Below, in pieces: positions 6,286 to 24,754 of a stretch of DNA of 64,000 nucleotides. The translations under genes and the position numbers were made by a program. Positions within the stretch are counted from its first letter, which is position 1; every line of letters starts with the position of its first letter. The notes under the pieces were generated by a model. The model was not told where the DNA came from and ran no database searches. It saw only the letters and a program-made list of their open reading frames with translations. The DNA lies in NCBI RefSeq assembly GCF_002844595.1, contig NZ_PJNW01000002.1, positions 496,001-560,000 of the forward strand, read 5' to 3'. The stretch is from Pleomorphomonas diazotrophica. Its GTDB lineage: Bacteria > Pseudomonadota > Alphaproteobacteria > Rhizobiales > Pleomorphomonadaceae.

Positions 6286-6317
6286 CCGGCTTTGAGGAGC
6301 GATTTCGCCGGCTTTGA
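6286..6317. promoter_or_regulatory. 10-bp direct repeats, candidate response-regulator site
   Basis: CCGGCTTTGA occurs twice, at 6286-6295 and 6308-6317, with a 22-base period (two helical turns). The pair lies between the response-regulator gene and the afuA-like gene. OmpR-family regulators typically bind direct repeats on one DNA face, so this is a reasonable operator candidate. Not tested. Confidence 0.45.
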
Positions 6318-6442
6318 AACATTGTTCATACAAAACCAGGCGATCGCGGCTGTTTTCCGACCTTTTGGATCTGGTTTCAGTGTCGGGTGGCATGTCACGT
6401 TTCAGCGACCCCGGACGAGGACCGGGCGAACGGGAGGACAAC

Positions 6443-7474: not shown

Positions 7475-7484
7475 CCCGTCGTAC

Positions 7485-7516
7485 TTCGGCCCGTTTCCAA
7501 TGCGAGCCGGGCCGAA
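7485..7516 (+). promoter_or_regulatory. Hairpin between afuA and afuB
   Basis: A perfect 9-bp stem, TTCGGCCCG (7485-7493) with CGGGCCGAA (7508-7516), has a 14-nt loop. It lies 10 bases after the afuA stop and ends about 20 bases before the permease start. It is followed by AATCCCC rather than a T-run. Such hairpins commonly stabilise the binding-protein message or dampen read-through into permease genes. Confidence 0.6.
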
Positions 7517-7538
7517 AATCCCCTTCAGGATGAATGGC

Positions 7539-9698: not shown

Positions 9699-9713
9699 CC
9701 GGAGCGCATTCCG

Positions 9714-10772
9714 ATGTCCGAAAAAGGTTCCGTCCAATTCCAAGGCGTCACGAAGCGCTTCGGCGAAGTGGTGGCCCTGAAGCCGCTCGATCTCGATGTC
9801 CAGCCGGGCACGCTGGTGACGCTGCTCGGCCCATCCGGCTGCGGCAAGACGACGACATTGCGGCTGATCGCCGGTCTGGAGAGCGCCACCGAGGGGCGCA
9901 TCCTCATCGGTGGCACCGACGTGACCAACCTGTCGGCCACCTATCGGCGGGTATCCATGGTGTTCCAGTCCTATGCGCTCTTTCCGCATATGACGGTGCT
10001 CGAGAATGTGGCCTATGGCCTGACGGTCAAGCGCGTGCCGAAGGCGGAGGCCCATGCCAGGGCAGAGGAGGGGCTGGCCATGGTGGGCCTCGCCGGTTTC
10101 GGCCGGCGTCTGCCGTCCGAGCTCTCCGGCGGCCAGCAACAGCGTGTCGCCGTGGCGCGTGCCGTCGTTCTCGAACCTGAGGTTCTGCTGCTCGACGAGC
10201 CGCTCAGCAACCTCGACGCCAAGCTCCGGCGCCGGGTGCGCGAGGAGATCCGTCAAATCCAGCAGCGGCTGGGGCTGACGGCCGTCTACGTGACGCATGA
10301 TCAGGAAGAGGCGATGGCCGTCTCCGATCGCATCATCGTCATGAAGAATGCCGAGATCGCTCAGGAGGGGGCACCGGAAGACCTCTACGAACGACCCGCC
10401 TCCGCCTTCATCGCCGACTTCATCGGCGACGCCAATCTGATCGACGTGGATGTGACCCCCGGCGGAGCGACCACCGCCGTCGACCTGCTCGGCCGGCGGA
10501 TCGAGCTGCCGCTCGCAACGACAGTTCGGGGTGCCGGCAAGCTGGTGCTGAGGCCGCATCAGATGGTCATCCGCGCCGAGCCGACACCCTATTCTCTGCC
10601 GGCCGAGGTCACTTACGCCGCATATCTCGGAAGTCAGATTCAGTATTCGCTGGAAACCCAGGCGGGGCCGCTGTTCGCTTCCGTGGCGCCCAAGGCCAAG
10701 CCATTCGCTGTCGGTGAGCAGGTCCACGTGGGTTTTGATCCGGCGGATCTCCGGATCGTTCCTGGGGCGTAG
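9714..10772 (+). CDS. afuC: AfuC-type ABC transporter ATP-binding protein
   Basis: A 352-residue ATPase with Walker A (GPSGCGKTTTLR), Q-loop (VFQSYALFPHM), signature (ELSGGQQQRVAVARA), Walker B (VLLLDEPLSNLD) and switch His (YVTHDQEEAM). These are followed by a C-terminal TOBE-like regulatory domain (about 285-350). It belongs to the FbpC/PotA/AfuC class. It begins 15 bases after the permease stop, and the three genes form one operon. A CGGAG 9 bases upstream of the start is a modest ribosome binding site. It energises import of the AfuA ligand. Confidence 0.92.
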   Translation: MSEKGSVQFQGVTKRFGEVVALKPLDLDVQPGTLVTLLGPSGCGKTTTLRLIAGLESATEGRILIGGTDVTNLSATYRRVSMVFQSYALFPHMTVLENVAYGLTVKRVPKAEAHARAEEGLAMVGLAGFGRRLPSELSGGQQQRVAVARAVVLEPEVLLLDEPLSNLDAKLRRRVREEIRQIQQRLGLTAVYVTHDQEEAMAVSDRIIVMKNAEIAQEGAPEDLYERPASAFIADFIGDANLIDVDVTPGGATTAVDLLGRRIELPLATTVRGAGKLVLRPHQMVIRAEPTPYSLPAEVTYAAYLGSQIQYSLETQAGPLFASVAPKAKPFAVGEQVHVGFDPADLRIVPGA

Positions 10773-12326: not shown

Positions 12327-12710
12327 ATGATCGAACTTCGGATTCAGTTGCGGGTGGATGCCGACACGCGCATCGGCCCGGGCAAGATTTCGCTTCTGGA
12401 GGCGATCGCCCGCGCTGGCTCGATATCGGCCGCCGCCCGCGAGCTGGAAATGACATACCGTCGCGCCTGGGAACTCATCGACCACATGAACAAGGCTTTT
12501 GGCCAGCCGCTGGTCGTTGGGCATACCGGAAGCGCGGGCGGGGCGTCGCTGACCGCTCTGGGAAGCGACGTAGTCCGCCGCTTCCGCCTTGTCGAGGAAC
12601 TCGCGCGGGAGAGTGCCGCGTCCCACATTGCCGCCCTCGATGCGGCGATCCTGACACCCGGTTCGGTTGCCGCCTCGGATGCGGACTCGCAGGACGACGA
12701 CCTAGACTAA
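12327..12710 (+). CDS. ModE-type winged-helix regulator without molybdate-binding domain
   Basis: 127 residues matching the N-terminal DNA-binding domain of ModE. Recognisable parts are GPGKISLLEAIARAGSISAAAR, then a YRRAWELIDHMN helix, and the GG..LTALG wing. The C-terminal di-MOP molybdate-binding part is absent, replaced by a short acidic tail. ModE proteins sense molybdate or tungstate; single-domain forms such as this are often found next to molybdo- or tungsto-enzyme loci. GGGAGGGG precedes the ATG. It lies immediately upstream of the AOR gene with a 329-base gap that contains two AT-rich palindromes, so it probably controls the AOR locus; how it would sense metal is unknown. Confidence 0.85.
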   Translation: MIELRIQLRVDADTRIGPGKISLLEAIARAGSISAAARELEMTYRRAWELIDHMNKAFGQPLVVGHTGSAGGASLTALGSDVVRRFRLVEELARESAASHIAALDAAILTPGSVAASDADSQDDDLD

Positions 12711-12812
12711 AGACGGTCCGCGGGTCTTTGGCTGTCTGGGCAATTGTGTTCTCAATCGTATAATTTCAACTGTTTGATGCGCGTGAGCCTTTTGCGGCCG
12801 GTTTCCGCTAAA

Positions 12813-12826
12813 AATACTTCAGTATT
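12813..12826. promoter_or_regulatory. AT-rich palindrome AATACT-TC-AGTATT
   Basis: A perfect 6-bp inverted repeat with a 2-base centre lies about 215 bases before the AOR start. It is followed by GGATTTTTC, so it could alternatively work as a weak terminator for the ModE-like gene. Confidence 0.4.
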
Positions 12827-12861
12827 GGATTTTTCTTTCTTTCCATGAGAATGCGAATTCA

Positions 12862-12883
12862 ATTATGTCGCCGCAAACATAAT
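12862..12883. promoter_or_regulatory. Inverted repeat ATTATGT-N8-ACATAAT, candidate ModE-like operator
   Basis: Perfect 7-bp arms (12862-12868 and 12877-12883) flank an 8-base GC-rich spacer. Known ModE boxes are AT-rich inverted repeats of similar form (TATATA arms with a 6-7 base spacer). Position between the ModE-like gene and AOR fits an operator. Assignment is inference. Confidence 0.5.
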
Positions 12884-13039
12884 AGTATAGGTTCGTATTT
12901 CATCTGATTTGCTTGGATTTGTGACTTTCGGCAAGGATGGTTCAGGCGAGCGTGGCGATCACGCAGCCAACCATTGTCTGGCAAGGCCGAAATCACGAGG
13001 CATTTGGGGACCTCCGGATCGGCAGTTGGAGGAAGAGCC

Positions 13040-14773
13040 ATGCCTAAAGTCATTCGCGTCAACATGACCGATCTCTCGGTCCGTATCGAGGAAGCTCCGG
13101 CCGCCTGGGCCGGCCTCGGCGGACGCGCCCTGACGTCGACCGTCGTCGCCGCCGAAGTGCCGCCGACCTGCCATCCGCTCGGCCCCAACAACAAGCTGGT
13201 GTTCGCTCCCGGCCTGCTGTCTGGCACCGCTGCCGGCAACGCCGGCCGCATGTCCGCAGGCGCCAAGAGCCCGCTGACCGGCACCATCAAGGAAAGCAAC
13301 GCCGGCGGCACCTGCGGCCGCATGCTCGGCCGCCTCGACATCAAGGCGATCATCATCGAGGGCCAGCCGGCTTCGACCGACGCCTGGTACAACATCCGCA
13401 TCAGCAACGAGGGCGTGGTGGTCGAGCCCGAAACCGAGACGGTCGGGCTGAACAACTTCGCCGTTCTGGAATCGGTTGCCCGCCGCTACGGCGAGGACAA
13501 GGGCGTCATCACCATCGGCTCGGCCGGTGAGAACCTGATGCTGATCTCCAACATCTCGACCCGCGACCCCGAAGGCAAGCTGCGCAGCTTCGGCCGCGGA
13601 GGTCTCGGCGCGGTGATGGGCTCCAAGCGCGTCAAGTTCATCACCATCGACCAGGACGGCACCCGCCCGGTTCCGCTGGTCGACTCGGCCGCCTTCAAGG
13701 CCGCCAACATGGTGTTCACCAAGGCGCTCAAGGATCACCCGGTGTCCGGCCAAGGCTTGCCGACCTATGGCACCGCCGTGCTGGTCAACATCCTGCACGA
13801 GATCGGCGGTCTGCCGACCCGCAACTTCACGTCGGGTCAGTGCGAGCACCATGACATGATCTCGGGCGAGCACATGTATGACACCATCGTCGCCCGTGGC
13901 GGCGAGCCGACGCACGGCTGTTCGCTCGGCTGCGTGATCCAGTGCTCGCAGGTCTACAACGACAAGGACGGCAAGTATCTCACCTCCGGCTTTGAATACG
14001 AGACCATCTGGGCCTTCGGCGCCGACTGCCTGATCGACAACCTCGACCTGATCGCCGAGTGCGACAACGTCATGGACGACCTTGGCGTCGACAGCATCGA
14101 AACGCCGGTGATGTTCGGCGTCGCCATGGAGGCTGGCATCCTCAAGTTTGGCGACGGCAAGGAAGTGTTGCGCCTGCTGCGCGAGGAGATCGGCAAGGCC
14201 ACGCCGCTCGGTCGCGTCCTCGGCGGCGGCACCGCCCTGGTCGGCAAGACCTATGGCGTTGCCCGCGTGCCGGTGGTCAAGGGGCAGGGCATTCCCGCCT
14301 ATGATCCGCGTTCGGTCAAGGGCATCGGCGTCACCTACGCCACGACCACCCAGGGCGCCGACCACACGGCGGGTTACGCCGTCGCCACCAACGTGCTCAA
14401 CGTCGGCGGCAAGGTCGATCCGCTGTCCAACGTGGGCCAGGTCGAACTGTCGCGCAATCTCCAGATCGCCACGGCGGCCATCGACTCCACCGGCCTCTGC
14501 CTGTTCATCGCCTTCCCGGCGCTGGACATCGCCGAGTGTCTGCCGGCCACCGTCGACATGCTGAATGCCCGCTTCGGCACAAAGCTGACGATGGACGACG
14601 TGGTGGGCCTCGGCAAGACGGTGCTCAAGCTTGAGCACGAGTTCAACCTCGCGGCCGGCATCGGCCCGGAACAGGACCGCCTGCCCGAGTTCTTCGAGCT
14701 CGAAGCGATCGCTCCCCACAACGTCAAGTGGGACATGGACCAGAAGGAACTCGCCACCTTCTGGAACTTCTAA
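13040..14773 (+). CDS. Aldehyde:ferredoxin oxidoreductase family tungsto/molybdo-enzyme
   Basis: 577 residues, close to characterised AORs (about 605). The family oxidises aldehydes to carboxylic acids, or reduces acids, with a bis-pterin tungsten cofactor and a [4Fe-4S] cluster. The N-terminal domain has GRMSAGAKSPLTGTIKESN, a pterin-contact region. The cluster cysteines appear as CSLGCVIQC near residues 294-302, with a distal Cys in STGLCLFIAF. The spacing C-x3-C-x3-C differs from the C-x2-C-x3-C of Pyrococcus AOR. ATG 13040 has a strong GGAGGAAG. Metal is inferred as tungsten because a TupBCA importer lies in the same gene block. Natural substrate is unknown. Confidence 0.92.
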   Translation: MPKVIRVNMTDLSVRIEEAPAAWAGLGGRALTSTVVAAEVPPTCHPLGPNNKLVFAPGLLSGTAAGNAGRMSAGAKSPLTGTIKESNAGGTCGRMLGRLDIKAIIIEGQPASTDAWYNIRISNEGVVVEPETETVGLNNFAVLESVARRYGEDKGVITIGSAGENLMLISNISTRDPEGKLRSFGRGGLGAVMGSKRVKFITIDQDGTRPVPLVDSAAFKAANMVFTKALKDHPVSGQGLPTYGTAVLVNILHEIGGLPTRNFTSGQCEHHDMISGEHMYDTIVARGGEPTHGCSLGCVIQCSQVYNDKDGKYLTSGFEYETIWAFGADCLIDNLDLIAECDNVMDDLGVDSIETPVMFGVAMEAGILKFGDGKEVLRLLREEIGKATPLGRVLGGGTALVGKTYGVARVPVVKGQGIPAYDPRSVKGIGVTYATTTQGADHTAGYAVATNVLNVGGKVDPLSNVGQVELSRNLQIATAAIDSTGLCLFIAFPALDIAECLPATVDMLNARFGTKLTMDDVVGLGKTVLKLEHEFNLAAGIGPEQDRLPEFFELEAIAPHNVKWDMDQKELATFWNF

Positions 14774-14774
14774 A

Positions 14775-14858
14775 GCAGTTTCAGCAAAAGTGGGGACCGG
14801 TTTTGCGTCCGAAACTGCGCTGAATCTAGTGGATGGAGCGCATTCGCAGAATGCGTTC
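14775..14858. repeat. Rhizobial-type intergenic palindromic element
   Basis: Two adjacent hairpins fill the gap after the AOR gene. The first pairs GCAGTTTC (14775-14782) with GAAACTGC (14811-14818) and inner GCAAAA with TTTTGC around GTGGGGACCGG. The second pairs GAGCGCATTC (14836-14845) with GAATGCGTTC (14849-14858), including one G-T pair. The wording AAAAGTGG...CCGGTTTTGCGTCC resembles palindromic repeats scattered between genes in Hyphomicrobiales. Only one full copy was seen here. Confidence 0.6.
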
Positions 14859-14867
14859 TGAGATGAG

Positions 14868-15098
14868 ATGGTCATGCGGATCACGGTCAAGCTCTTCGCG
14901 ACCTTTCGCGAGAACCGCTTCAAGGAGGCCCGGCGGGAGTATCCGCCGGGAACTACCGTCGCCGACGTGGCGGCGGAGCTTGAAATCGAGGCGGGCCTGA
15001 TCGGCATGATTTTCATTCACGGGCGCGCGGCCGAACTCGATCGCGTGCTCGAAGAAGGCGACGTTCTGGCGCTCTTTCCCCTCCTCGGAGGGGGCTAG
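14868..15098 (+). CDS. MoaD/ThiS-like beta-grasp sulfur carrier with C-terminal GG
   Basis: 76 residues (74 if it starts at ATG 14874). The product has the ubiquitin-like fold pattern MRITVKLFATFR ... GDVLALFPLLGGG and ends in the diglycine needed for adenylation and thiocarboxylation. MoaD donates sulfur for the dithiolene of molybdopterin. Here, next to an AOR gene and with a ThiF/MoeB-like gene downstream, it is probably a dedicated carrier for the tungsten-pterin cofactor. The ribosome binding site is poor for either start; translation may depend on coupling or on the preceding palindromic region. Confidence 0.88.
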   Translation: MVMRITVKLFATFRENRFKEARREYPPGTTVADVAAELEIEAGLIGMIFIHGRAAELDRVLEEGDVLALFPLLGGG

Positions 15099-15180
15099 GC
15101 TCGTTTCCTCCTAGGTGCGTTTAGTCGTGGAGTACGCGCCCCCAACGCGTGCTTTTCGTGGAGCAACCGGAACGAACGTG

Positions 15181-15205
15181 GAGGAGGCCCGACATGGGCC
15201 TCCTC
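15181..15205 (+). terminator. Perfect 10-bp hairpin between the MoaD-like and ThiF-like genes
   Basis: GAGGAGGCCC (15181-15190) and GGGCCTCCTC (15196-15205) form a perfect stem with a 5-nt loop, followed by AGCCGTTTC. The strength suits an intrinsic terminator or RNA processing site, but the T-tract is poor, so partial read-through is likely. It may separate the AOR-moaD message from the downstream cofactor genes. Confidence 0.55.
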
Positions 15206-15239
15206 AGCCGTTTCAGCCAGGCAAGTCGGAGGGGGCACC

Positions 15240-16007
15240 TTGCTATCCAAACTGGAGCTCGAGCGTTACAGCCGGCATATCCTGCTCAGGGACGTCGGTG
15301 GCCCAGGCCAGCACAAGCTCAAGGCCGCTCGGGTATTATGCGTCGGCGCAGGTGGTCTCGGATCGCCGGTGATCGAGTATCTGGCGGCGGCCGGCGTCGG
15401 CACACTCGGCCTCGTCGACGACGACAGGGTCAGCCTCTCCAACCTGCAGCGGCAGGTGGTGCACTCGACGGAGAATGTCGGCAAGCTGAAGGTCGAGAGC
15501 GCCCGCGAGCGGATTGCCGCCATCAATCCCAATGTTGCCGTCGAACTGCATCCGCTTCGACTCGATGCGGATAATGTCGGTGAGCTTGTGGGGGCTTACG
15601 ACTACGTCGTGGATGGCACCGACAACTTTCCGACCCGCTTTCTGGTGGCCGACACCGCCTATGCCCGGCGCAAACCGCTGGTCACGGCCGGCGTGCTGGA
15701 ATTCTACGGGTCCGTGACGACTCTGTTGCCATATGCGATGGACACCAACGGCCAGCCTAACCCGAGCTGGCGCTGCCTGATGCCGCGAGAGCCGGAAACA
15801 GCCGCGCTCACCTGTTCGGAAGTCGGCATTCTCGGGGGCGTTGTTGGCGTGCTCGGCACGCTTGCCGCCTGCGAGGTACTGAAGCTGATCACCGGCGTCG
15901 GCACGCCGCTGATCGGGCGTCTCCTGATGGTCGACATCCGCGACATGGGCTTCGACCTCGTCGATTACTACCGAAATCCGGCGTCTCCCGTGTTCGGACA
16001 AGGCTGA
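15240..16007 (+). CDS. ThiF/MoeB-like adenylating enzyme lacking zinc cysteines
   Basis: 255 residues from a TTG start with GGAGGGGG upstream. The nucleotide-binding loop GAGGLGSPVIEYLAAAG, acidic VDDDRVSLSNLQRQ and the DGTDNFPTRF segment are those of E1-like enzymes that adenylate MoaD or ThiS C-termini. The catalytic-type Cys is present in ALTCSEVG. The usual zinc site is eroded: MoeB has C-x2-C before this (CYRC), here SWRC with one Cys, and the C-terminal C-x2-C pair is absent. No rhodanese domain follows. It probably activates the MoaD-like protein at 14868; genes on either side belong to the same unit. Confidence 0.88.
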   Translation: MLSKLELERYSRHILLRDVGGPGQHKLKAARVLCVGAGGLGSPVIEYLAAAGVGTLGLVDDDRVSLSNLQRQVVHSTENVGKLKVESARERIAAINPNVAVELHPLRLDADNVGELVGAYDYVVDGTDNFPTRFLVADTAYARRKPLVTAGVLEFYGSVTTLLPYAMDTNGQPNPSWRCLMPREPETAALTCSEVGILGGVVGVLGTLAACEVLKLITGVGTPLIGRLLMVDIRDMGFDLVDYYRNPASPVFGQG

Positions 16008-16016
16008 GGTGCTCGC

Positions 16017-16370
16017 ATGGGCGGAGAGATAGAACTCATTGCCTTCATGGGGTTGCGGAAGCTGTTCGGTGACCGCGGCTGGTCGATCCCGCATTTTCTC
16101 AAGATCGAGACCGACATGACGGGCGAGGAGCTGCTGCGCTTCCTGTCGATCGAGAGCGCCAAGGTGGAATCGTTCATCGTCAATCGCTCGGCCATCGCCG
16201 TCGAGGAGGCGATCATCCATCCGGGCGATCGCGTTGCCCTGGTCCCGCCGGGCGTGCCGGGGCCGCACCGTCTGTTGCTCGGCATCCATGGTCAGACGAA
16301 GCCGGCGCAGCCCTTCGGCATGGTCTTTTCGGACACGGACAACGACACCAAGAAAGACGAGGACCAATGA
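16017..16370 (+). CDS. MoaD/ThiS-like beta-grasp protein without terminal GG
   Basis: 117 residues. The centre resembles the ThiS/MoaD fold: ELLRFLSIESAKVESFIVNRS and then IIHPGDRVALVPPGVPGPHR. Unlike sulfur carriers it does not end with GG; PPGVPG is followed by about 30 further residues with an acidic, lysine-rich tail. It thus seems unable to be adenylated at a C-terminal diglycine unless it is cleaved after VPG. It starts 10 bases after the ThiF-like gene and overlaps the next Fe-S gene by 4 bases (ATGA), so production is tightly coupled to that partner. Exact role unknown. Confidence 0.75.
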   Translation: MGGEIELIAFMGLRKLFGDRGWSIPHFLKIETDMTGEELLRFLSIESAKVESFIVNRSAIAVEEAIIHPGDRVALVPPGVPGPHRLLLGIHGQTKPAQPFGMVFSDTDNDTKKDEDQ

Positions 16371-17872
16371 CCCTCGACAAGCCGGAACTGCTGGCGCGCG
16401 CCGCCATGACGATCTGCATCAACTGCGAACAGTGCCGCGAGTTGATGGAAGACGCGCCCTGCCAGTATTTCCCGCGCCTGTTCCACCTTGCCGACCGCGC
16501 CAAGTCGGGCGGCAAGCCGGTATCGGGGCAGGATCTTGCCGAACTCATCGACCTTTGCAACGCCTGCGGCCAGTGTCCCTGCCGTCCCGTTCAGAGCGAC
16601 ATCCGCCGGGCCAAGGACGCTTTCGTGGAACGGGACGGCCTGCCGCTTGCCACCCGATTCATCGAGAACGTCCAGTTGGTCGGCCGGCTCTGCGGCACCT
16701 TTCCGGCGCTGGTCGACATCGTGATGAGAAACCCGCTGCTCGGGCGGATGGCCCGGCGGCTCGTCGGCGTCCATCCGGACCGCAAGATGCCGTCGTTTCC
16801 GCGAGATCGCCTGGCGAAATGGGTCAGGCGGCGCGGCCTCGACCGCCCGAAGCCGGCGGAGGGGCGCAAGGTTGCCTATTTCGTCGGGTGCACGGCGCGC
16901 TACATGTTTCCGGATGTGGCCAAGGCGACCATCGAGGTGCTGGAAAGAAACGGCGTCACCGTCTACGTGCCGGAGCAGAAATGCTGCGGCATGCCCACCT
17001 ACCTCGAAGGCGACAAGCCGTTCACGCTTGATCTTGTCGCCGCCAACCTGCCGGTTCTTCAGCAGTGCGTCGAGGACGGCTACGACATCGTGACGGCCTG
17101 CCCAACCTGCTCCTTCATGTTCAAGTCGGTCCTGGCGCGCGATGCTCAGTTCTCACCTGTTTATCGCGATCGCATCCGGGACTTGGCGGTTGAATGCGGC
17201 GGCGATACCGGGGCTATCGCCAATGCGCTCACGGCCGAGGTCGCCGCTCCATCCGGCCGCACCAGCAGCGTCGCATCCGAGTTTCTGGCGCCCTGGGTGA
17301 TCAACTACAATCTCGGCTTGCATGCCGAGGCCGATGGCGGGGACGTGGGCTATTTTGCCGGTTGGGATGCCAACCAGCGGATCAAGGTGGCCGCGCATGT
17401 CTTCGAGCTCGGCGAGTATCTCAGAGCCCTCGACCACGAGGGAGCCTTGCGCCTGCCGCCCATGGAGCCGTCGGAAAAGCTCTCCTATTTCCCGCCCTGC
17501 CATCTCCGGGAACAGAACATGGGTCGGCCGTGGCTGAGCCTGCTCGAAGAGGCGCCGCAGTCCGACATTTCGCCGGTGGGGCAGCCGATGGACTGTTGCG
17601 GCCTCGGTGGCATCATGGGGTTCAAGAGGGACTTCCATGCCGCGTCGCTGGCCATGGGGCGCGGTTTGATCGAGAGGATCGCGACGGCGGCGCCGGATCG
17701 GATCGTCACGGAGTGCCTGGCCTGCCGGCTGCAGTTCACGCAAATGCAGGACAGGCCGGTGTCCCATCCCGTCGAGTTGCTGGCCCGGGCCTATCGTCGT
17801 GAAAGCGACGGACGCGTTGCGGACAAGGCGCTTTCTCAGGCTATGGTAGGCGGCGGACAACACACGGATTGA
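16367..17872 (+). CDS. GlpC/HdrD-like iron-sulfur oxidoreductase subunit
   Basis: 501 residues, no membrane segment evident. The N-terminus carries two ferredoxin-like Cys sets: C17, C20, C23, C32 (CINCEQC...C) and C64, C67, C70, C72 (CNACGQCPC, with unusually short last spacing). Two CCG domains follow, with KCCGMP then ACPTC, and DCCGLGG then CLAC, as in GlpC, LutA and HdrD. Such proteins pass electrons between dehydrogenases and quinones or disulfides. No small ferredoxin gene sits beside the AOR gene, so this protein is a good candidate electron partner. It overlaps the MoaD-like gene upstream; moeA follows within 20 bases. Confidence 0.88.
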   Translation: MTLDKPELLARAAMTICINCEQCRELMEDAPCQYFPRLFHLADRAKSGGKPVSGQDLAELIDLCNACGQCPCRPVQSDIRRAKDAFVERDGLPLATRFIENVQLVGRLCGTFPALVDIVMRNPLLGRMARRLVGVHPDRKMPSFPRDRLAKWVRRRGLDRPKPAEGRKVAYFVGCTARYMFPDVAKATIEVLERNGVTVYVPEQKCCGMPTYLEGDKPFTLDLVAANLPVLQQCVEDGYDIVTACPTCSFMFKSVLARDAQFSPVYRDRIRDLAVECGGDTGAIANALTAEVAAPSGRTSSVASEFLAPWVINYNLGLHAEADGGDVGYFAGWDANQRIKVAAHVFELGEYLRALDHEGALRLPPMEPSEKLSYFPPCHLREQNMGRPWLSLLEEAPQSDISPVGQPMDCCGLGGIMGFKRDFHAASLAMGRGLIERIATAAPDRIVTECLACRLQFTQMQDRPVSHPVELLARAYRRESDGRVADKALSQAMVGGGQHTD

Positions 17873-17889
17873 AGCGGAGAGTCGAGGTC

Positions 17890-19143
17890 ATGGTGCAGTT
17901 GAGTTCGGACGCCTTCGCTTTCGGCGGTGAGCTGATGCCGGTTGAAGACGCCCTGGCGCTGGTCGCTGCCCGGATTCCGCCGCTCAGCGAAACCGAGAAG
18001 GTGAGCCTGATCGATGCCGACGGTCGGTTCCTCGCCTCGGATGTGATCGCTCCGATCGACCTGCCGGTGTTCGACAACTCGGCCGTCGACGGCTACGCGG
18101 TGGCACACGCGGATCTCGCGGCTAGTGGGCCTACCGTACTGCCGGTCGGTGCCAGGATCGCGGCGGGGCAGGCGGCATCCACCCCCATTGCCGGGAGAAC
18201 GGCGGCGCGCATCTTCACGGGCGCGCCCATGCCGCCCGGAACGGACACCGTGTTCATGCAGGAAGACGTGACGGTCCGTGAGGATGGTGGCGTCGAGCTG
18301 CCGCCGGGGCTCGGCAAGGGTGCCAACTGCCGCCCGAAGGGAGAAGATATCGCCCGCGGAAGCGTGGCCGCGCCAGCCGGCCGGCGGCTGGAGCCGCGCG
18401 ACATCGCGCTGCTGGCTGCGCTCGGCATTACCGCCGTCGAGGTTCGCCGGCGGCCGCGCGTGGCGGTGTTCTCCACCGGCAACGAGCTGCGCGATCCGGG
18501 ACAGACACTCGGAGCCGCGGCGATCTACGACTCCAACCGCTTTTCGCTCCAGGTCATGCTGAAGCGGGCCGGATGCGAGGTGTCCGACCTCGGCATTCTT
18601 CCCGATGATCGCAACACCACGGCCGCGCGTCTCGGCGAAGCCGCTCACGCGCATGACCTCATCGTGACCTCCGGCGGCGTTTCGACCGGCGAAGAGGATC
18701 ACGTAAGGGCCGCCATCACCGCCAGCGGTTCGATGGTCTTCTGGCGTCTTGCCATCAAGCCGGGACGGCCCTTGGCTATGGGCATCATCAATGGTGTGCC
18801 GCTGGTGGGGCTTCCGGGCAACCCGGTGGCGGTCTTCGTCACCTTTGCCCATGTATTGCGGCCGCTGGTGATCGCGCTGTCGGGCGGAACACCGGCTCCG
18901 ATCGCCGCCATGACCGTTATCTCGGGGTTCGACTACAGGAAGAAGGCCGGCCGCCGGGAGTATGTTCGCGTGTCGCTCGAAAGCTCGGAGGGGCCGGCCA
19001 TTGCCAAGAAGTACCCCGTCGACGGTGCCGGAGTTCTGACCTCGCTGACCCGGACCGATGGGATGGTCGAGCTTCCCGAAGCCTGTACGAACGTTCGGGT
19101 CGGCGATCCGATTTCCTTTTTCGCCTATAGCCAGCTCACCTGA
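17890..19143 (+). CDS. moeA: Molybdopterin molybdenumtransferase MoeA
   Basis: 417 residues with the family layout: N-terminal PVEDALALVAARI, domain with FDNSAVDGYAVAHADL, the central TGAPMPPGTDTVFMQED motif, the MPT-binding core with STGNELRDPG and SGGVSTGEEDH, and GLPGNPVAVFVTF near the end. MoeA inserts metal into adenylylated molybdopterin. In this operon it may be a copy dedicated to tungsten. I choose ATG 17890 (GAGG upstream); a TTG at 17869 overlapping the previous stop would add 7 residues. A housekeeping copy elsewhere in the genome is likely but cannot be seen. Confidence 0.93.
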   Translation: MVQLSSDAFAFGGELMPVEDALALVAARIPPLSETEKVSLIDADGRFLASDVIAPIDLPVFDNSAVDGYAVAHADLAASGPTVLPVGARIAAGQAASTPIAGRTAARIFTGAPMPPGTDTVFMQEDVTVREDGGVELPPGLGKGANCRPKGEDIARGSVAAPAGRRLEPRDIALLAALGITAVEVRRRPRVAVFSTGNELRDPGQTLGAAAIYDSNRFSLQVMLKRAGCEVSDLGILPDDRNTTAARLGEAAHAHDLIVTSGGVSTGEEDHVRAAITASGSMVFWRLAIKPGRPLAMGIINGVPLVGLPGNPVAVFVTFAHVLRPLVIALSGGTPAPIAAMTVISGFDYRKKAGRREYVRVSLESSEGPAIAKKYPVDGAGVLTSLTRTDGMVELPEACTNVRVGDPISFFAYSQLT

Positions 19144-19211
19144 GGGCCGCATCCGATGAGCATCGCAGCGGGTTCGGCATCCCCTTCGGTTCTGTGCAGG
19201 AGTTGGCTCGG

Positions 19212-20948
19212 ATGAACCTGCCAATGGGAAACCATGCGCCGAACTGCGGCCCGGCTTGCGGCACCGACCCCAACTGCGAGCAATGCGCCTCTTCGGCAAG
19301 GCAGTCCGGTCCGAGCAACCCCGTTGGCCGCTTGCCGCATCACGGCCAGATTCTGGCGGCGCGGTCGCGCTTCCTGTCCACCGGTTCCGTTCCGGAGGGC
19401 GTGCCGACGCCTCTTGTCCGGTCATGGCAGAGGAGCAGCCAGTTCGGCTTCGCGCCGCCGGCGTCGGCTCGGCAGCGCGACAGGCTGGAGGAATCGGGGC
19501 TGAGGAGCCTCAGGGAATGCCACGCCGATCTCATCGCGGCGTCGCGAGAGGAAATGGCGTCGCTGGGGCACGAGTTGAACGATCGTGGCGGCGTGGTGGT
19601 CCTGACCGATCCCTCGGGCATCGTGCTGAGCCGCATGGGCGAGGGCGCCTTTTCCGACGATGCCGACCGGTTGGGCCTCAATGAAGGCGTCGACTGGTCC
19701 GAGCAGGCGATTGGAACCAATGCCATTGGCACTGTGGCCCTGGAAAGGGTTGCCCTCTCGGTAATCGGCGCCGAGCATCTCTTTTGTCTGAACACCTCCC
19801 TGAGCTGCTCGGCGGTGCCGATCCTCGATCCGTCGGGTGTGCTGGCCGGCGTTCTCGACGTCTCGACCTCGTTCACCGTGACCCACGATTATCTGCTGCC
19901 GCTGCTCAAACGCTCGGTGATCGAAATCGAGCGTCGCCTGTTCGATCAGCGCTTTTCCGGGCACGCGCAACTCCGCTTCCATTCCAACCAGTACATGTTC
20001 GGCGGCCCCCGCGATGGCCTGCTGGCCTTCGACGAGGATCGCCTGATCGGCGCCAATCGCGCCGCATTGGAGCTTCTCGGCCACGATTGGTCGGCGATCG
20101 GGACGGCTCGATTCCAGCATCTCTTCTCAGCCGGCTACGACGTCATCGAGCGAACAGCATCGTCGGGCGAGTGTCGGCTCCGTTCGGCGGAAGGGGCGGA
20201 GTTCTTTGCGCGCCTGCAACTGCCGCAGAGCTCTCGTTCCCGCCCCGCTCCATCCGGGCAGCACGACCCGAAAGCCCCGGCCTACACGGAGACCGGCCGC
20301 GAGGACATGCGCGCCCACCTGGCGCTGGAGCAGATCAAAGGGCGGGGAACGCTCAGGTTTCGTCCGATGACGGCAGGCCAGCTCATCTATGGAGCCGATC
20401 TGCTGGACGAGTGTGGCGAGGCCATTCTGATCGTCGCCTCCGGTCGCTATCGCTGCTTCGCCTCGCACGACGGGCGGGAGTTGACGCTGTTCACGCTCGG
20501 CTGTGGCGACGCGCTGCCGCTTCGGGCCGACCTCGCCGTCGAAGTCTGTGCCGATGGCGACGCGGCCATCGTTCCGCGGGCGGTCTTCCAAAGGCTCGTT
20601 CGCGATTATCCGGAGTTCGGCCGCTGCGTCCTGTCGGTCATCGAGGGGCTTCTGGGCCGGTCATTGTCGATGGTTGGCGACATGGCCTTCCGAAGCGTCC
20701 GCTACCGGGTGATCCGGCATATCTCCGCCCTCGCCGAACGCAGCGGTCGTGAAACGCCGGCCGGGATCACGATCGATCCGGCCCCCACCGGCGATGAGTT
20801 GGCAACCGCCATCGGGGCGGCGCGACAGTCCGTTTCCACCGTTCTTGCCGAACTCATCCGGTCCGGCGACATCCGCCGGACCAACCCGCGCGCCCTCGAC
20901 ATCCCCGATCTCGACAGGCTTCGGGCGGAGCTGCAGCGCGCGCTGTGA
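19212..20948 (+). CDS. Chimeric regulator: AcoR-type sensor joined to CRP/FNR-type effector
   Basis: About 578 residues. Residues ~50-300 read like the sensory part of AcoR-type activators: VRSWQRS, GVDWSEQAIGTNAIGT, CSAVPILDPSG and an ANRAALELL PAS-like stretch. Where a sigma-54 AAA+ domain should follow, the chain instead continues as a cyclic-nucleotide-binding-like beta-roll (about 375-480) and a CRP-type helix-turn-helix (GDELATAIGAARQSVSTVL). No GAFTGA or Walker motifs occur. The extreme N-terminus has C12, C16, C22, C25 (C-x3-C-x5-C-x2-C), reminiscent of FNR cluster ligands. It is likely the redox- or substrate-responsive regulator of the AOR/tup genes. ATG 19212 has AGGAG 8 bases upstream; GTG 19194 is the alternative. 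Confidence 0.85.
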   Translation: MNLPMGNHAPNCGPACGTDPNCEQCASSARQSGPSNPVGRLPHHGQILAARSRFLSTGSVPEGVPTPLVRSWQRSSQFGFAPPASARQRDRLEESGLRSLRECHADLIAASREEMASLGHELNDRGGVVVLTDPSGIVLSRMGEGAFSDDADRLGLNEGVDWSEQAIGTNAIGTVALERVALSVIGAEHLFCLNTSLSCSAVPILDPSGVLAGVLDVSTSFTVTHDYLLPLLKRSVIEIERRLFDQRFSGHAQLRFHSNQYMFGGPRDGLLAFDEDRLIGANRAALELLGHDWSAIGTARFQHLFSAGYDVIERTASSGECRLRSAEGAEFFARLQLPQSSRSRPAPSGQHDPKAPAYTETGREDMRAHLALEQIKGRGTLRFRPMTAGQLIYGADLLDECGEAILIVASGRYRCFASHDGRELTLFTLGCGDALPLRADLAVEVCADGDAAIVPRAVFQRLVRDYPEFGRCVLSVIEGLLGRSLSMVGDMAFRSVRYRVIRHISALAERSGRETPAGITIDPAPTGDELATAIGAARQSVSTVLAELIRSGDIRRTNPRALDIPDLDRLRAELQRAL

Positions 20949-21380
20949 TCCTAAAGACATCGTTCTGATGAAAACGGCCGGACGCGGGTCCCGGCCGGGG
21001 CACGCCTGCGATCCACGTCGCGGCTGAAGGAGACGTAGGTTGCCCGTCGCAATACTGGACTTGGGAAGAAAACTTACGTGTTGGGATTTGTCGCCTAGGC
21101 GACAGCCTTTCTGCCGAGGCCAAGGTAAGTGCAGTGAGTAATGGTCAGGTCAGGAGGAGAAACCTGCCAGCGAGGATAGGGAGTGGGAGGGAAGTTGCGC
21201 GCCTATTGACTAAAAACGTCTCAGACCATCGGTGACGCTTAGACTATAGGCGTATTCTGGCATGTTTTGTCCGAATGTCTTGCTTCCTAAACCAGAAAAA
21301 TACCGTGATGAACGCCTAATCGGACTGCCATTGACCACATAAGACTAAATTATACCCAGTAAAACTACGTGGGACGAGGC
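20949..21380 (+). promoter_or_regulatory. Long leader/promoter region before tupBCA
   Basis: 432 bases without a gene. It holds a GC hairpin soon after the regulator stop (GGCCGG around 20983 with CCGGCC near 20995), the 16-bp palindrome listed separately, a spaced inverted repeat CGCCTAT (21200-21206)/ATAGGCG (21246-21252), and an AT-rich end with TTGACC and ATTATACCC at about 21333-21356 near the expected promoter. The unusual length suggests a structured leader or several operators. A metal-cofactor riboswitch is possible but I cannot match a consensus. Confidence 0.5.
21089..21104. promoter_or_regulatory. 16-bp perfect palindrome TGTCGCCTAGGCGACA
   Basis: Fully self-complementary 16-mer in the tup leader region. 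It could be a dimer-binding operator, for example for the upstream CRP/FNR-like or ModE-like regulator, or an RNA hairpin, though a 2-nt loop is too tight without fraying. Confidence 0.45.
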
Positions 21381-22091
21381 ATGCAGCAGGACGCGATATC
21401 CACCGCTTCGATCTTGTCGTTGCTCCTTGGCGACGGCGGGCACTTTCTGGGGATCATTTTCCTGTCGCTTCAGGTCACGATCACGGCCGTCACCTGTGCC
21501 GGGCTTGTCGGTCTGCCGCTTGGGGCGGCACTGGCCTTGTCCCGTTTCCCCGGTCGCACGGTGATCATCGTTCTGGTCAACACGATGATGGGGTTTCCGC
21601 CCGTCGTCGCCGGCCTTGCCATCTTCCTGCTTCTGTCGCGCTCCGGACCGCTCGGGGACATGGGGCTGCTGTTCACGCCGAAGGCGATGATGATCGCCCA
21701 GTTCGTCCTGGTGCTGCCGATCATCGTCGCACTGACCCGGCAGACGATCGAGGATCTCTGGACCGAATATCAGGATCACCTCACGTCGCTCGGCGCCGGG
21801 CGGCTGCGGTCCATTCCCACATTGCTGTGGGACGCGCGCTTCTCGCTGGTGACGACGCTGCTCGCCGGTCTTGGCCGCGCCAGCGCCGAAGTCGGCGCCA
21901 TCCTGATCGTCGGCGGCAACATCGCCGGCTTCACCCGCACCATGACCACATCGATCGCCCTTGAAACCTCCAAGGGGGATCTGCCGCTCGCTATGGCGCT
22001 CGGCGTCGTCCTCATGAGCCTGACGCTGGCCATCAACAGTCTCGCCTATGGCATTTCGCGCGTCGGCGCGCGGTTTTCAGGGAAAAGCTGA
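21381..22091 (+). CDS. tupB: Tungstate ABC transporter permease TupB
   Basis: 236 residues with about five to six membrane helices and the permease-type loop YQDHLTSLGAGRLRS contacting the ATPase. The family TupB/WtpB-like permease is paired with TupC and TupA just downstream, which fixes the identity. Start ATG 21381 follows GGGACGAGG; a GTG at 21369 is the alternative. The stop overlaps the tupC start (TGATG). Role: inner-membrane channel for high-affinity tungstate uptake. Confidence 0.9.
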   Translation: MQQDAISTASILSLLLGDGGHFLGIIFLSLQVTITAVTCAGLVGLPLGAALALSRFPGRTVIIVLVNTMMGFPPVVAGLAIFLLLSRSGPLGDMGLLFTPKAMMIAQFVLVLPIIVALTRQTIEDLWTEYQDHLTSLGAGRLRSIPTLLWDARFSLVTTLLAGLGRASAEVGAILIVGGNIAGFTRTMTTSIALETSKGDLPLAMALGVVLMSLTLAINSLAYGISRVGARFSGKS

Positions 22092-22819
22092 TGCGCGATA
22101 CCACGTCTCTGCTGCCGCTGATCGTGCGCGACCTCCGCCTGGAGCGGGATGGCCGGGTGCTTCTCGACGTTCCCATCGCCCGCATTCAGAACCGCCAGCG
22201 CAATGTCATTCTCGGCCCGAATGGTGCGGGCAAGTCGCTGTTTCTCAAGACCTGCCACGGACTGGTTCCGCCGACCTCGGGCAGCATCGAGTTTACCCGT
22301 CCGGCGTCCGCCGCCGACAACCGGCGCAAGCAGGCGATGGTGTTCCAGAAGCCGGTGATGCTCCGCCGGTCGGTTCGGGCCAACTTTATGCACGCGCTCG
22401 CCATGGCCGGTGTGGGCTGGAGGGAGCGTAGGCGGATCGCGACCGAGACCATGGCGCAATTCGGCCTTTCCTCGCTGGCAGACATGCCGGCGCGCGTACT
22501 GTCCGGCGGCGAGCAGCAAAGGCTTGCGATTGCCCGCGCGGCGAGCCTCTGGCCCGACCTGTTGTTTCTCGACGAGCCGACTTCCTCGCTCGATCCGACC
22601 GCCAGTCGTCAGATCGAAGACATGCTGGAGATCCTGCATGAGCGGGGCGTCACGCTCGTGCTGACCACGCATGACCTTGGGCTCGCGCGTCGTTTTGCTG
22701 ACGTGATCCTCTTCTTTCACAACGGCCGGCTCGTCGAAGAGAGCAATGCCGAGCGCTTCTTCACAGCCCCGCAAACCCCTGAAGCCAAGGCTTTCCTAGA
22801 ACATCGCCTGTTCTGGTGA
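22091..22819 (+). CDS. tupC: Tungstate ABC transporter ATP-binding protein TupC
   Basis: A 242-residue ATPase with Walker A GPNGAGKSLFLK, Q-loop VFQKPVMLRRSVRANF, signature VLSGGEQQRLAIARA, Walker B LLFLDEPTSSLD and switch His LTTHDLGLARR. It is short, without a regulatory C-terminal domain, as expected for TupC. Its start overlaps the tupB stop, so the two are translationally coupled. It energises tungstate import. Confidence 0.92.
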   Translation: MRDTTSLLPLIVRDLRLERDGRVLLDVPIARIQNRQRNVILGPNGAGKSLFLKTCHGLVPPTSGSIEFTRPASAADNRRKQAMVFQKPVMLRRSVRANFMHALAMAGVGWRERRRIATETMAQFGLSSLADMPARVLSGGEQQRLAIARAASLWPDLLFLDEPTSSLDPTASRQIEDMLEILHERGVTLVLTTHDLGLARRFADVILFFHNGRLVEESNAERFFTAPQTPEAKAFLEHRLFW

Positions 22820-22853
22820 GGCTGCTCCATCTTTACGAAACGGGAGAATCCCA

Positions 22854-23690
22854 ATGCTGCGTCGTACCTTCGTCACCGCTGCGGCGTCCATGCTGGTCGC
22901 CCTTGGCATGTTCCATCCGGCCGAGGCCGAGGAACGGTTCATCACGGTCGCGTCCACGACGTCGACCCAGGACTCGGGGCTTTTCGACGCCTTGCTGCCG
23001 GCGTTCACCGCGAAAACCGGCATCACCGTGAAGGTCATCGCGCAGGGAACCGGACAGGCGCTCGACACGGCCCGTCGCGGTGACGCCGATGTTGTCTTCG
23101 TGCATGCCAAGGCTCAGGAGCTCAAGTTCCTGGAGGACGGCTTCGGCGTGAAGCGCTACCCGGTGATGTACAACGATTTCGTCGTCGTTGGACCCAAGAG
23201 CGATCCGGCCGGCATCGCCGGCGGCAAGGATGTTGCCGCCGCCTTCAAGGCGATTGCCGAGAAGAAAGCCCCCTTCGTCTCTCGTGGGGACAAGTCCGGG
23301 ACCCATAGCGCGGAACTGAAGCTCTGGACGGCGGCCGGCATCGATCTGCCGGCGGTGCGGGGCGAATGGTACCGGGAGATCGGACAGGGCATGGGGGCGA
23401 CGCTGAATACCGCGAACGCCATGGTCGCCTACACGCTGTCGGACCGCGGCACCTGGATCGCCTTTGCCAACAAGGGCGACCTCGGGATCGTCGTCGAAGG
23501 CGATAAGAAGCTGTTCAACCAATACGGCGTCATGCTGGTCAATCCGACGAAGATCCCGACGGTCAAGGTCGACGACGGTCAGGCCTTCATTGACTGGCTC
23601 ATCTCGCCGGAAGGGCAGGCGATGATCGCAGGCTATCGCATCGGCGATCAGCAGCTCTTCTTCCCGAACGCCGACGATCCCAAGGCCTGA
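22854..23690 (+). CDS. tupA: Tungstate-binding periplasmic protein TupA
   Basis: 278 residues with an N-terminal signal peptide (MLRRTFVTAAASMLVALGM to about AEA). The mature protein starts with the TupA hallmark VASTTSTQDSGLFDALL, whose Thr/Ser residues bind the oxoanion. It continues with GTGQALDTARRGDADVVFVHA. TupA proteins strongly prefer tungstate over molybdate, unlike ModA. It ends the tupBCA set; moaA follows after about 60 bases. The binding-protein gene coming last in the ABC unit is less usual. Confidence 0.94.
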   Translation: MLRRTFVTAAASMLVALGMFHPAEAEERFITVASTTSTQDSGLFDALLPAFTAKTGITVKVIAQGTGQALDTARRGDADVVFVHAKAQELKFLEDGFGVKRYPVMYNDFVVVGPKSDPAGIAGGKDVAAAFKAIAEKKAPFVSRGDKSGTHSAELKLWTAAGIDLPAVRGEWYREIGQGMGATLNTANAMVAYTLSDRGTWIAFANKGDLGIVVEGDKKLFNQYGVMLVNPTKIPTVKVDDGQAFIDWLISPEGQAMIAGYRIGDQQLFFPNADDPKA

Positions 23691-23752
23691 CCGCTACCAG
23701 CGCCCGGAGATGCCGTGCGCTTCGATGAGCCTCAGTGAGCCGCGGAGAGCGA

Positions 23753-24754
23753 ATGATGCAGCCCAGACTCGTTGATACCTTTGGTCGAGAAATCACCTAT
23801 CTCAGGGTCTCGGTGACCGATCGGTGCAACCTGCGCTGCCGCTATTGCATGGCCGGCGACGTTTCCTTCTCGCCGCGTCAGGACGTGCTGACTATCGAGG
23901 AACTCGGGTCTCTGACCTCGGCCTTCGTCGCCTGTGGCATCCGGAAAGTCCGGATCACAGGCGGCGAACCCTTGGTGCGCAAGGGTATCATGCACCTTGT
24001 CGAGGGGCTGTCGCGCCATCTGCGGACCGGCGCGCTCGACGAACTCTGCATGACCACCAACGGCGTGCTGCTGTCCAAGTATGCGCGCGGCCTAGCCGAC
24101 TGCGGCGTGCGCCGACTGAATGTTTCGCTCGACACGCTCGATCCCGAACGGTTTGCCGAGATCACCAGCGGCGGCGATCTCGATACGGTGCTGAAGGGGA
24201 TCGACGCGGCCCGCGACGCTGGCCTGGCAATCAAGCTCAATGCCGTGGCCCAGAAGGGCTACATCGAGCAGGATGCCGAGGCTCTCGTCCGGTTCGCCCA
24301 GGACAGGCATCTGGACATCACCTTCATCGAGACCATGCCGCTCGGCGAGGTCCGGAACAATTGCGCCGATCATTATCTGCCGCTTGACGAGTTGCGACGG
24401 CTGATCGAGCGTCGCTGGAAGCTGATCGACACCGACGAGTCGAGCGGTGGTCCGGCGCGCTATGTGCGAGTGGCCAACACCGGCGGCCTGATCGGCTTCA
24501 TCACGGCGTTGAGCCACTGCTTCTGTGGCGATTGCAACCGTATCCGCCTCAGCGCCACCGGGTCTCTTTACACGTGTTTGGGCCACGAAGACGCCACCGA
24601 TCTGCGCGGGCTCGTGCGTCAGGGCGCCGACTTGGAGACCATCGAGAATGCAATCCACGGCGCTGTTGCCGCCAAGCCCAAGTCACATGGGTTCGGCACG
24701 AGCCCGGGGCGGGAGCCGGCGTTGAAGAGGCACATGTCGGTGTTGGGCGGATAG
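23753..24754 (+). CDS. moaA: GTP 3',8-cyclase MoaA
   Basis: A radical-SAM enzyme of 333 residues catalysing the first step of molybdopterin synthesis, GTP to 3',8-cyclo-GTP. The N-terminal SAM cluster motif is CNLRCRYC and the second cluster motif is CFCGDCNRIRL with a further Cys 13 residues on (SLYTC). The C-terminus ends in GG, required for activity in MoaA. The start at ATG 23753 (or 23756) follows GGAGAG; a GTG at 23735 is less likely. It sits just after tupA, so cofactor precursor synthesis and metal import are co-located. Confidence 0.95.
   Translation: MMQPRLVDTFGREITYLRVSVTDRCNLRCRYCMAGDVSFSPRQDVLTIEELGSLTSAFVACGIRKVRITGGEPLVRKGIMHLVEGLSRHLRTGALDELCMTTNGVLLSKYARGLADCGVRRLNVSLDTLDPERFAEITSGGDLDTVLKGIDAARDAGLAIKLNAVAQKGYIEQDAEALVRFAQDRHLDITFIETMPLGEVRNNCADHYLPLDELRRLIERRWKLIDTDESSGGPARYVRVANTGGLIGFITALSHCFCGDCNRIRLSATGSLYTCLGHEDATDLRGLVRQGADLETIENAIHGAVAAKPKSHGFGTSPGREPALKRHMSVLGG

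Follow-up and report, generated by a model that had tools for sequence, protein, structure and literature searches.

A candidate tungsten aldehyde oxidoreductase unit with a GlpC-like iron-sulfur protein in Pleomorphomonas and its relatives

Gene content and conservation of the block

The stretch analysed here, referred to as the window, comprises 64,000 nucleotides of the Pleomorphomonas diazotrophica genome (4.53 Mb in 40 contigs) and carries, at positions 12327-24754, a block of genes that includes an aldehyde oxidoreductase (AOR) of the tungsten type. Families were called from Pfam and NCBIfam profile matches against the open reading frames (ORFs) of the window. All twelve genes named in the original prediction are present within these coordinates, in order and on the plus strand, and are listed below with two candidate operator sites.

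12327..12710, +, ModE-like DNA-binding protein with a helix-turn-helix (HTH) only, 127 aa (TIGR00637 E 1.8e-20, PF00126; 5' of the AOR gene in 14/14 loci L052-L065)
12742..12765, no strand, candidate operator site 1, AATTGTG-N10-TATAATT (right half a promoter-like -10 hexamer; promoter match alone no better than chance)
12861..12884, no strand, candidate operator site 2, perfect ATTATG-N10-CATAAT (motif search)
13040..14773, +, tungsten-type aldehyde oxidoreductase (WorL), 577 aa from ATG (AFOR_N/AFOR_C; PDB kin 9mqx, 1aor, 8c0z)
14868..15098, +, MoaD-like sulfur carrier, 76 aa (PF02597 33.2 bits; GGG end retained in relatives)
15240..16007, +, ThiF/MoeB-type E1 activating enzyme (PF00899 229.9 bits; PRK05690 MoeB 286.4 bits, cut-off 266)
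16017..16370, +, WorX-type ThiS-fold protein with conserved GDRVALVPPGVPGPHR (weak PF02597 match, 20.8 bits; motif kept in relatives)
16367..17872, +, GlpC/LutA/EtfD/HdrB-like Fe-S protein, 501 aa (two CCG domains, two variant N-terminal Cys clusters; co-occurrence with AOR)
17869..19143, +, MoeA metal insertase, predicted tungsten type, IKPGR ... NPVA (MoeA profile; residue meaning from PMC13197769)
19194..20948, +, chimaeric regulator with a DhaR/AcoR-like GAF half, a CooA-like Crp half and a Cys-containing N-terminus (GAF and Crp-type HTH)
21369..22091, +, TupB, tungstate permease (named by position and kin)
22091..22819, +, TupC, ATP-binding cassette (ABC) ATPase (PF00005)
22854..23690, +, TupA, tungstate-binding protein (NF041772, PF12849)
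23735..24754, +, MoaA, one of two genomic copies (TIGR02666 357.6 bits, above cut-off; other copy G000:C40)

The TupB ORF is without a Pfam match and is named by its position and by the tblastn matches it has within tup operons of related genomes, and TupA, for which NF041772 was the best match at 250 bits against a cut-off of 400, was called from operon order and kin. Two MoaD-like proteins had been predicted, and the first, ending in GGG, can keep that name, but the second (16017-16370) has no terminal GG, carries PGVPGPHR conserved near the C-terminus and matches ThiS at 20.8 bits, under the 22.5 cut-off; we take it to be the ThiS-like protein named WorX in PMC13328260 and not a usual sulfur carrier. 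To call the locus complete was an overstatement, because the only MoaE found in a search of the genome sits on another contig, and Pfam profiles gave no moaE match to the ORFs of the block; of the two MoaA proteins in the genome above the cut-off, one is encoded in the locus. Control by a molybdenum- or tungsten-cofactor (Moco/Tuco) riboswitch was rejected, as an Rfam scan of the window at gathering thresholds returned a single tRNA and nothing else.

Conservation was assessed in named loci, which are the best 80 of 346 AOR relatives from a scan of genome contigs. Among 14 of these (L052-L065), the ModE-like, MoaD and ThiF genes were each found in 14, WorX in 13, MoeA in 12, TupA in 11, the GlpC-like gene in 10, the GAF/CooA-like regulator in 7 and MoaA in 5, counts in which the ThiF matches of L060 and L061 reach just 29-31%, L061 is a 4.5-kb contig and L058 stops short of the tup genes. 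The order of the block is retained in Pleomorphomonas, and Oryzibacter and Siculibacillus keep most of it despite rearrangement. The tup, moeA and GlpC-like genes remain side by side in Oryzibacter, though inverted, and in Siculibacillus and two Ancalomicrobiaceae metagenome-assembled genomes (MAGs) moeA-tup lies on the opposite side of the AOR gene. The unit stays together despite these rearrangements, and the flanking genes are co-conserved with the AOR gene across genera, as had been predicted. Just upstream of the block, positions 6314-10772 encode an ABC importer (an SBP_bac_6 binding protein, a permease with two BPD_transp_1 stretches and a TOBE_2 ATPase), for which no link to the locus was seen.

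The oxidoreductase and its predicted metal

The enzyme, the one AOR found in the genome, contains both family domains (AFOR_N 196.9 bits, AFOR_C 240.6 bits) and matches the solved structures 9mqx, 1aor and 8c0z nearly end to end, of which 1aor and 8c0z are presumably PfAOR and AaAOR (Aromatoleum aromaticum). The ORF is open from TTG 12974, but the start is probably ATG 13040, the position from which relatives in other genera align. Across 105 aligned rows (the window, the 80 named relatives, 21 further relatives from its order and 3 PDB chains), T245, E321, Y421 and H442, which correspond to PfAOR Thr243, Glu313, Tyr427 and His448, are invariant in 105/105 rows, as are the [4Fe-4S] ligands C294, C298, C302 and C487; the list of aldehyde-oxidising residues for PfAOR is that of PMC13328260. 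A supposed loss of the fourth cluster cysteine in Geobacter-type relatives was rejected on the same count. By its domains, its kin in the PDB and these invariant residues, the gene encodes a true member of the AOR/WOR (tungsten oxidoreductase) family with complete catalytic and Fe-S residues, and its predicted relationship to pterin enzymes stands.

In the AOR tree, which is of a quick kind with an arbitrary root, the window enzyme groups with Desulfuromonadales, Holophagaceae, Desulfobulbaceae and Rhodocyclaceae in a clade where Geobacter, Pelobacter and further anaerobes abound and whose cluster motif is spaced Cx3Cx3C, versus Cx2Cx3C in 1aor and 8c0z. These two structures, 9mqx and 17/21 other same-order AORs lie outside the clade, and the remaining four form a sister group. 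Same-order AORs beyond the clade share 32-39% identity with the window enzyme (42% for one 163-residue fragment), and with this identity and their placement the idea that it resembles the other AORs of its order was rejected. Its closest named relatives (L052-L058) are 94-96% identical and belong to five records named Pleomorphomonas and two MAGs labelled simply Proteobacteria, and the AOR is present in 5/6 other genomes labelled as the same genus, one of the five being taken as Oryzibacter. The simplest reading of this tree would be that these alphaproteobacteria received the gene from such anaerobes, perhaps by way of betaproteobacteria.

The original description of AOR genes as mostly archaeal and anaerobic was too strong, given an AOR-family gene (E <= 1e-20) in 50/297 genomes of the order and the proteobacterial clusters listed in PMC1779556. 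Rarity, which does not extend to AORs in general, applies to this clade, which occurs in 9/297 genomes of the order and, at E <= 1e-150 in the class sample with at most the three to five best first-look candidates scored per genome, in 1/385, the window's own genome. Four genomes of other families (L011-L014 with L040-L043) carry the sister AOR group, which shares the Cx3Cx3C motif (HACMPGCLIKCSN) and has no adjoining TupA, MoeA, ThiF, MoaD or GlpC-like gene by tblastn with the window proteins. At L062 844-8875 (the same as L038), the main locus is neighboured by another AOR of distant kinship (36%), together with a MoaD-like gene, an additional ModE-like gene and a long ORF similar to MoeA.

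The metal insertase bears on the choice of metal. In Methylobacterium extorquens, MoeA1 is reported to be tungsten-selective, and docking, with mutants as partial support, links this to Arg291 and Ala312, positions at which molybdenum insertases have Lys and Ser (PMC13197769). The P. diazotrophica genome encodes two MoeA proteins: that of the locus has Arg (IKPGR) followed exactly 21 residues later by Ala (NPVA), the same pair as MoeA1, and the second has Lys (RPGK) and Ser (NPVS), the molybdenum type. MoeA1 differs in that it serves a formate dehydrogenase with a molybdopterin guanine dinucleotide cofactor (PMC13197769). Arg and Ala were found in the AOR-locus MoeA of 12/12 named loci and, in a reading of genomes of the order, in 9/9; one other MoeA read in each of those nine genomes had Lys in 9/9, with Ser in six and Ala in three. 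The remaining named loci vary (Gly and Ser in seven, Arg and Ser in five, Arg and Ala in four, of 16 read), a further 16 MoeA-like ORFs giving no residues. The order-genome reading obtained residues for 27/32 loci by pattern, with 16/46 MoeA matches without a locus, and 2/27 readings were misplaced at an earlier PG, namely that of the second MoeA of the window's own genome, resolved by direct reading, and one in G223 that is unsettled. Another AOR clade found in the order (L049 2150-10294) has tupBCA and a pair of adjoining MoeA genes, whose metal pockets carry Lys/Ser in one case and Arg/Ala in the other.

Tungsten use, as in the original prediction, is supported indirectly by the TupBCA linkage and the tungsten-type MoeA residues. 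That the AOR is instead a molybdenum protein in vivo, with TupBCA serving another enzyme such as a tungsten formate dehydrogenase (FDH), is highly improbable. Escherichia coli YdhV, a WOR, prefers molybdenum (PMC13328260), and a search of the window's own genome with PF00384 recovered, besides NuoG, two FDH/Nas-like proteins that such a supply might reach. Against this, the tungsten-type MoeA, the tup genes and the AOR remain one unit across genera, and Pelobacter carbinolicus is reported to make two tungsten AORs, possibly of the same clade, with tungstate and a molybdenum enzyme instead without it (PMC4275255).

The GlpC-like protein and the regulators

Between the WorX-type and moeA genes lies a protein with PF02754 twice, that is, paired CCG domains with complete cysteine sets (C175, C206, C207, C245, C248 and C378, C410, C411, C450, C453). 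Its two N-terminal clusters, C17xxC20xxC23x8C32 and C64xxC67xxC70xC72, depart from the canonical cubane motif CxxCxxCxxxCP, and no Fer4 domain was recognised in it by Pfam. All 18 motif cysteines are nevertheless invariant in 14/14 sequences at identities down to 44%. With the curated GlpC model the protein reaches 214.8 bits, the cut-off being 278. An AlphaFold2 model (predicted local distance difference test (pLDDT) 80.6, predicted template modelling score 0.84) has LutA, mycobacterial EtfD and HdrB as its best structure matches; EtfD and GlpC are quinone-linked. The protein is thus like GlpC, LutA, EtfD and HdrB in its two CCG domains with the CxnCCGxnCxxC pattern, and differs in its score under the GlpC cut-off, its odd N-terminal cysteine spacing and the absence of a recognised Fer4 domain. 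Residues of about 90-120 are moderately amphipathic.

The distribution of this protein follows that of the window's AOR subclade. In scans scoring at most the three to five best first-look candidates per genome, it was found at E <= 1e-30 in 8/295 genomes of the order, all among the nine with the window's AOR clade, and at E <= 1e-60 in 1/385 genomes of the class sample, the window's own. The AOR subclade of 26 rows (Shimodaira-Hasegawa-like approximate likelihood ratio test 97) comprises the window, 15 other alphaproteobacterial and 10 betaproteobacterial loci, and a GlpC-like copy was found for 21/26 members, 14 in the locus (including the window) and seven elsewhere in the genome, four of the seven being judged to lie on the AOR contig 12-29 kb off. 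The other 55 named loci have no full-length copy near the AOR gene, six showing a weak partial match of 20-23 bits, and among 11 of those 55 genomes that were searched none was found in nine and a relative of 37-41% identity in two. Such relatives (L207, L208, L209, Pelobacter-type) have no AOR match within the surrounding 12.5-15 kb; that of L207 stands beside ArsR, ArsP and cation-efflux genes and that of L209 beside SBF and sulfur-transport genes. From its distribution across the AOR subclade and the other genomes, the GlpC-like protein appears to come from a wider CCG family and to have been recruited as a partner within the proteobacterial branch. It is likely the redox partner of the AOR, and onward transfer to quinone is perhaps its role.

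An ordinary Class I WOR, in which a single-subunit AOR would reduce ferredoxin and the GlpC-like protein would be a passenger or serve elsewhere (e.g. in thiol/disulfide or metal-stress chemistry), is an unlikely but serious alternative. The gene content of the block matches Class I, a WorL alone, plus the added GlpC-like gene: no WorS, WorN or WorABC gene was recognised among the block ORFs, and thus not the WorS polyferredoxin subunit that stands beside WorL in Classes II-V, and stand-alone WorL proteins, some with WorX, are assigned to Class I with a ferredoxin carrier (PMC13328260). L060 and the Geobacter-type loci are without a full-length GlpC-like gene near the AOR, and the location of a relative near ars-type genes would also fit a separate role. 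The co-occurrence of the GlpC-like protein with one AOR subclade, kept through rearrangement and inversion, argues for the redox partnership instead.

A betaproteobacterial member of the subclade, the Sideroxyarcus MAG L097 (1-9000, with L202), carries a complex-I- or group-4-hydrogenase-like module 5' of its AOR gene on the same strand, consisting of a Proton_antipo_M protein of 1281 aa, NADHdh and Complex1_30kDa, with a ferric-reductase-like gene between and the GlpC-like gene 12 kb away. The module is a possible proton-pumping outlet for betaproteobacterial AOR electrons.

The stretch between the modE-like and AOR genes contains two palindromes of the form ATTATG-N10-CATAAT, at 12742 with two mismatches and at 12861 without any. 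A palindrome with <=2/12 mismatches within 400 bp 5' of the AOR gene was found in 15/15 loci with a ModE-like gene (the window and L052-L065), 14 of them with <=1 mismatch, although the flanking DNA is hardly alignable across genera. Among the remaining named loci it was present in this stretch in 2/66, and L084, the sole alphaproteobacterial locus without a ModE-like gene, had none. Elsewhere, at <=1 mismatch, there was one site in 328 kb of the 15 loci, in the moeA-tupB gap of Oryzibacter about 150 bp before tupB, and one in 1.185 Mb of the 66 others. In the window, <=3/14 mismatches gave 2 matches against 0.25 expected, with 2/100 shuffles equally good, and in the whole genome both AOR sites rank among the top three of 22 matches; the third (G000:C11:903340), between a sugar-binding-protein-like ORF and a ROK-type regulator, was rejected as a regulon member and is, we think, unrelated. 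The palindrome is a likely candidate operator, and the overlap of site 1 with the -10-like element fits repression, although that element by itself matches no better than chance would.

The ModE-like protein appears the better candidate binder, because its gene adjoins the site in all 15 loci, and the GAF/CooA-like regulator in eight (the window and seven others). The regulator is ModE-like, as originally predicted, in its HTH, and is not a full ModE of HTH and molybdate-binding domains, TIGR00637 scoring 72.8 bits against a 98.5 cut-off. The known ModE consensus, ATCGNTATATA-N6-TATATANCGAT (PMC545781), differs from the palindrome in sequence, with half-sites about equally distant from the centre. 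One-domain ModE regulators as such are not new, as they were reported in Desulfovibrio with a different candidate operator (PMC545781); searches of open-licence PMC literature returned no match to the palindrome and nothing on TunR.

Residues 132-294 of the second regulator match DhaR (E 2e-6), and residues 410-577 match CooA (E 3e-20), the best of its PDB hits. Cysteines 18 and 28 of its N-terminus are invariant and Cys 31 is kept in 8/9 sequences; a predicted structure (pLDDT 42.5) was unusable. Among the loci scanned, full-length relatives of the protein (19194-20948) occur only in L052-L058 and their counterparts. The positions aligned to Cys75 and His77, which we take to be the CooA heme ligands, are Pro and Arg, and the protein was rejected as a heme CO sensor on this basis; it may be an activator sensing aldehyde or alcohol, or redox state.

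The likeness to CooA, the CO regulator, bears on a reading in which the unit would work mainly in reverse, with low-potential electrons, such as those of CO, driving the reduction of acids to aldehydes. Acid reduction is a known capacity of some AORs (PMC12096430) and a Pleomorphomonas-like isolate produces H2 from CO (PMC5603099), but that isolate gave no detected product besides H2 and CO2 (PMC5603099), neither heme-ligand position is kept in the regulator, and a GlpC-type partner would favour flow toward quinone. Reverse operation accordingly appears improbable.

Proposed mechanism and comparison with known systems

In the mechanism favoured here, TupBCA would import tungstate, the shared pterin pathway with an extra MoaA, the dedicated MoaD-like carrier and the ThiF/MoeB activator would provide molybdopterin, and the tungsten-type MoeA would insert the metal. 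The AOR would then oxidise an aldehyde to the acid at a tungsten-bis-pterin site with one [4Fe-4S] cluster and pass electrons through the GlpC-like Fe-S protein to the quinone pool, feeding respiration and not ferredoxin or NAD. The HTH-only ModE-like protein would bind the palindromes 5' of the AOR gene, repressing or tuning expression with metal state, and in Pleomorphomonas the GAF/CooA-like regulator would add an aldehyde, alcohol or redox signal. To this reading as a whole, a tungsten aldehyde oxidoreductase unit with a GlpC-like partner to quinone and ModE-like control, we assign a probability of roughly 0.58. The gene content, the conserved residues, the synteny and the palindrome are direct observations; the metal, the substrate, the route of the electrons and the protein that binds the palindrome are deduced.

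Several observations weigh against it. Regarding the metal, an Arg and Ala MoeA occurs in four genomes of the family in which no AOR was detected (G058, G095, G155, G260), where a tungsten formate dehydrogenase is perhaps the user, and the two FDH/Nas-like proteins of the dimethyl sulfoxide reductase family in the window's own genome could likewise be tungsten users. Regarding the electron path, the GlpC-like protein has no transmembrane segment (top 19-residue hydropathy mean 1.43) and no membrane partner gene was recognised adjoining its own; it was not found in 5/26 subclade members (L060, L061, L063, L106, L125), all of them MAGs in which loss and incompleteness are indistinguishable, and the 37-41% relative in two Pelobacter-type genomes indicates a family that is not AOR-specific. 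Regarding control, no metal-binding domain was found by profile search in the 127-aa ModE-like protein, and the palindrome motif was derived from the same sequences that were used for counting, which leaves the site before tupB in Oryzibacter as the more independent evidence.

Much of the arrangement has precedent. AOR-MoaD-MoeB clusters in proteobacteria including Magnetospirillum were listed in 2006 (PMC1779556), with an AOR beside its own MoaD and MoeB, sometimes MoaA or MoeA, and at times apart from the main Moco genes; the neighbours named in that source are a ferredoxin and a pyridine disulfide oxidoreductase, and not a GlpC-like, ModE-like or tup gene. TupABC stands beside a WOR in Cetobacterium, the BamD and BamE subunits of benzoyl-CoA reductase (Class IV) are homologous to HdrABC, and a feed to the respiratory chain has been proposed for Class V WORs, for which the same account gives no known activity (PMC13328260). 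Such clusters, the tup-WOR linkage, Hdr-homologous subunits and a respiratory proposal are all known already.

The nearest functional lead appears to be the tungsten-dependent acetaldehyde oxidoreductases Pcar_0456 and Pcar_0665 of P. carbinolicus (PMC4275255, PMC3543383), which are of about 65 kDa, 34% identical to PfAOR, made with tungstate and linked to the oxidation of acetaldehyde to acetate. Pelobacter-labelled sequences fall in the window's AOR clade, and the Pcar genes may be of that clade too. The Pcar enzymes differ in being annotated as ferredoxin-reducing and in that three of four aor genes are predicted to lie under a Moco riboswitch, none of which was found in the window. A proteobacterial tungsten AOR, AorABC of Aromatoleum aromaticum (PMC6365974; PMC10413684), shares an operon with two MoaD-like genes, but has the additional subunits AorA (four Fe4S4 clusters) and AorC (FAD) and reduces NAD; the structure 8c0z, presumably of this enzyme, differs from the window AOR in its Cx2Cx3C motif and its clade.

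Among the WOR classes, the block is closest to Class I, in which WorL stands alone, in some cases with WorX and thiF nearby, but PMC13328260 describes no class among I-V that pairs a lone WorL with one GlpC-type protein, and its main text makes no mention of HdrD, GlpC, CCG, Alphaproteobacteria or Pseudomonadota. Searches of open-licence PMC papers likewise turned up no AOR with one GlpC-like protein as its partner. Just five of 92 WOR clades are reported to have a member with a defined role, and the demonstrated acceptors are ferredoxin and NAD (PMC13328260). If true, electron transfer from a lone AOR to quinone through a GlpC-type protein would be a new use of tungsten in respiration-capable bacteria, in which a very low-potential aldehyde oxidation would feed respiration directly. 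The presence of a tungsten-type beside a molybdenum-type MoeA in one genome, and of a candidate operator with a one-domain ModE, opens metal choice and tungsten regulation to direct study in bacteria that can be cultured, Pleomorphomonas oryzae DSM 16300 being one. We therefore propose, tentatively and at somewhat less than even odds, a further class of tungsten oxidoreductase in facultative proteobacteria, in which a soluble single-subunit AOR would deliver electrons through a dedicated GlpC/EtfD-like two-CCG protein to the quinone pool, with a one-domain relative of ModE controlling it from an operator of its own, analogous for tungsten to the molybdenum box.

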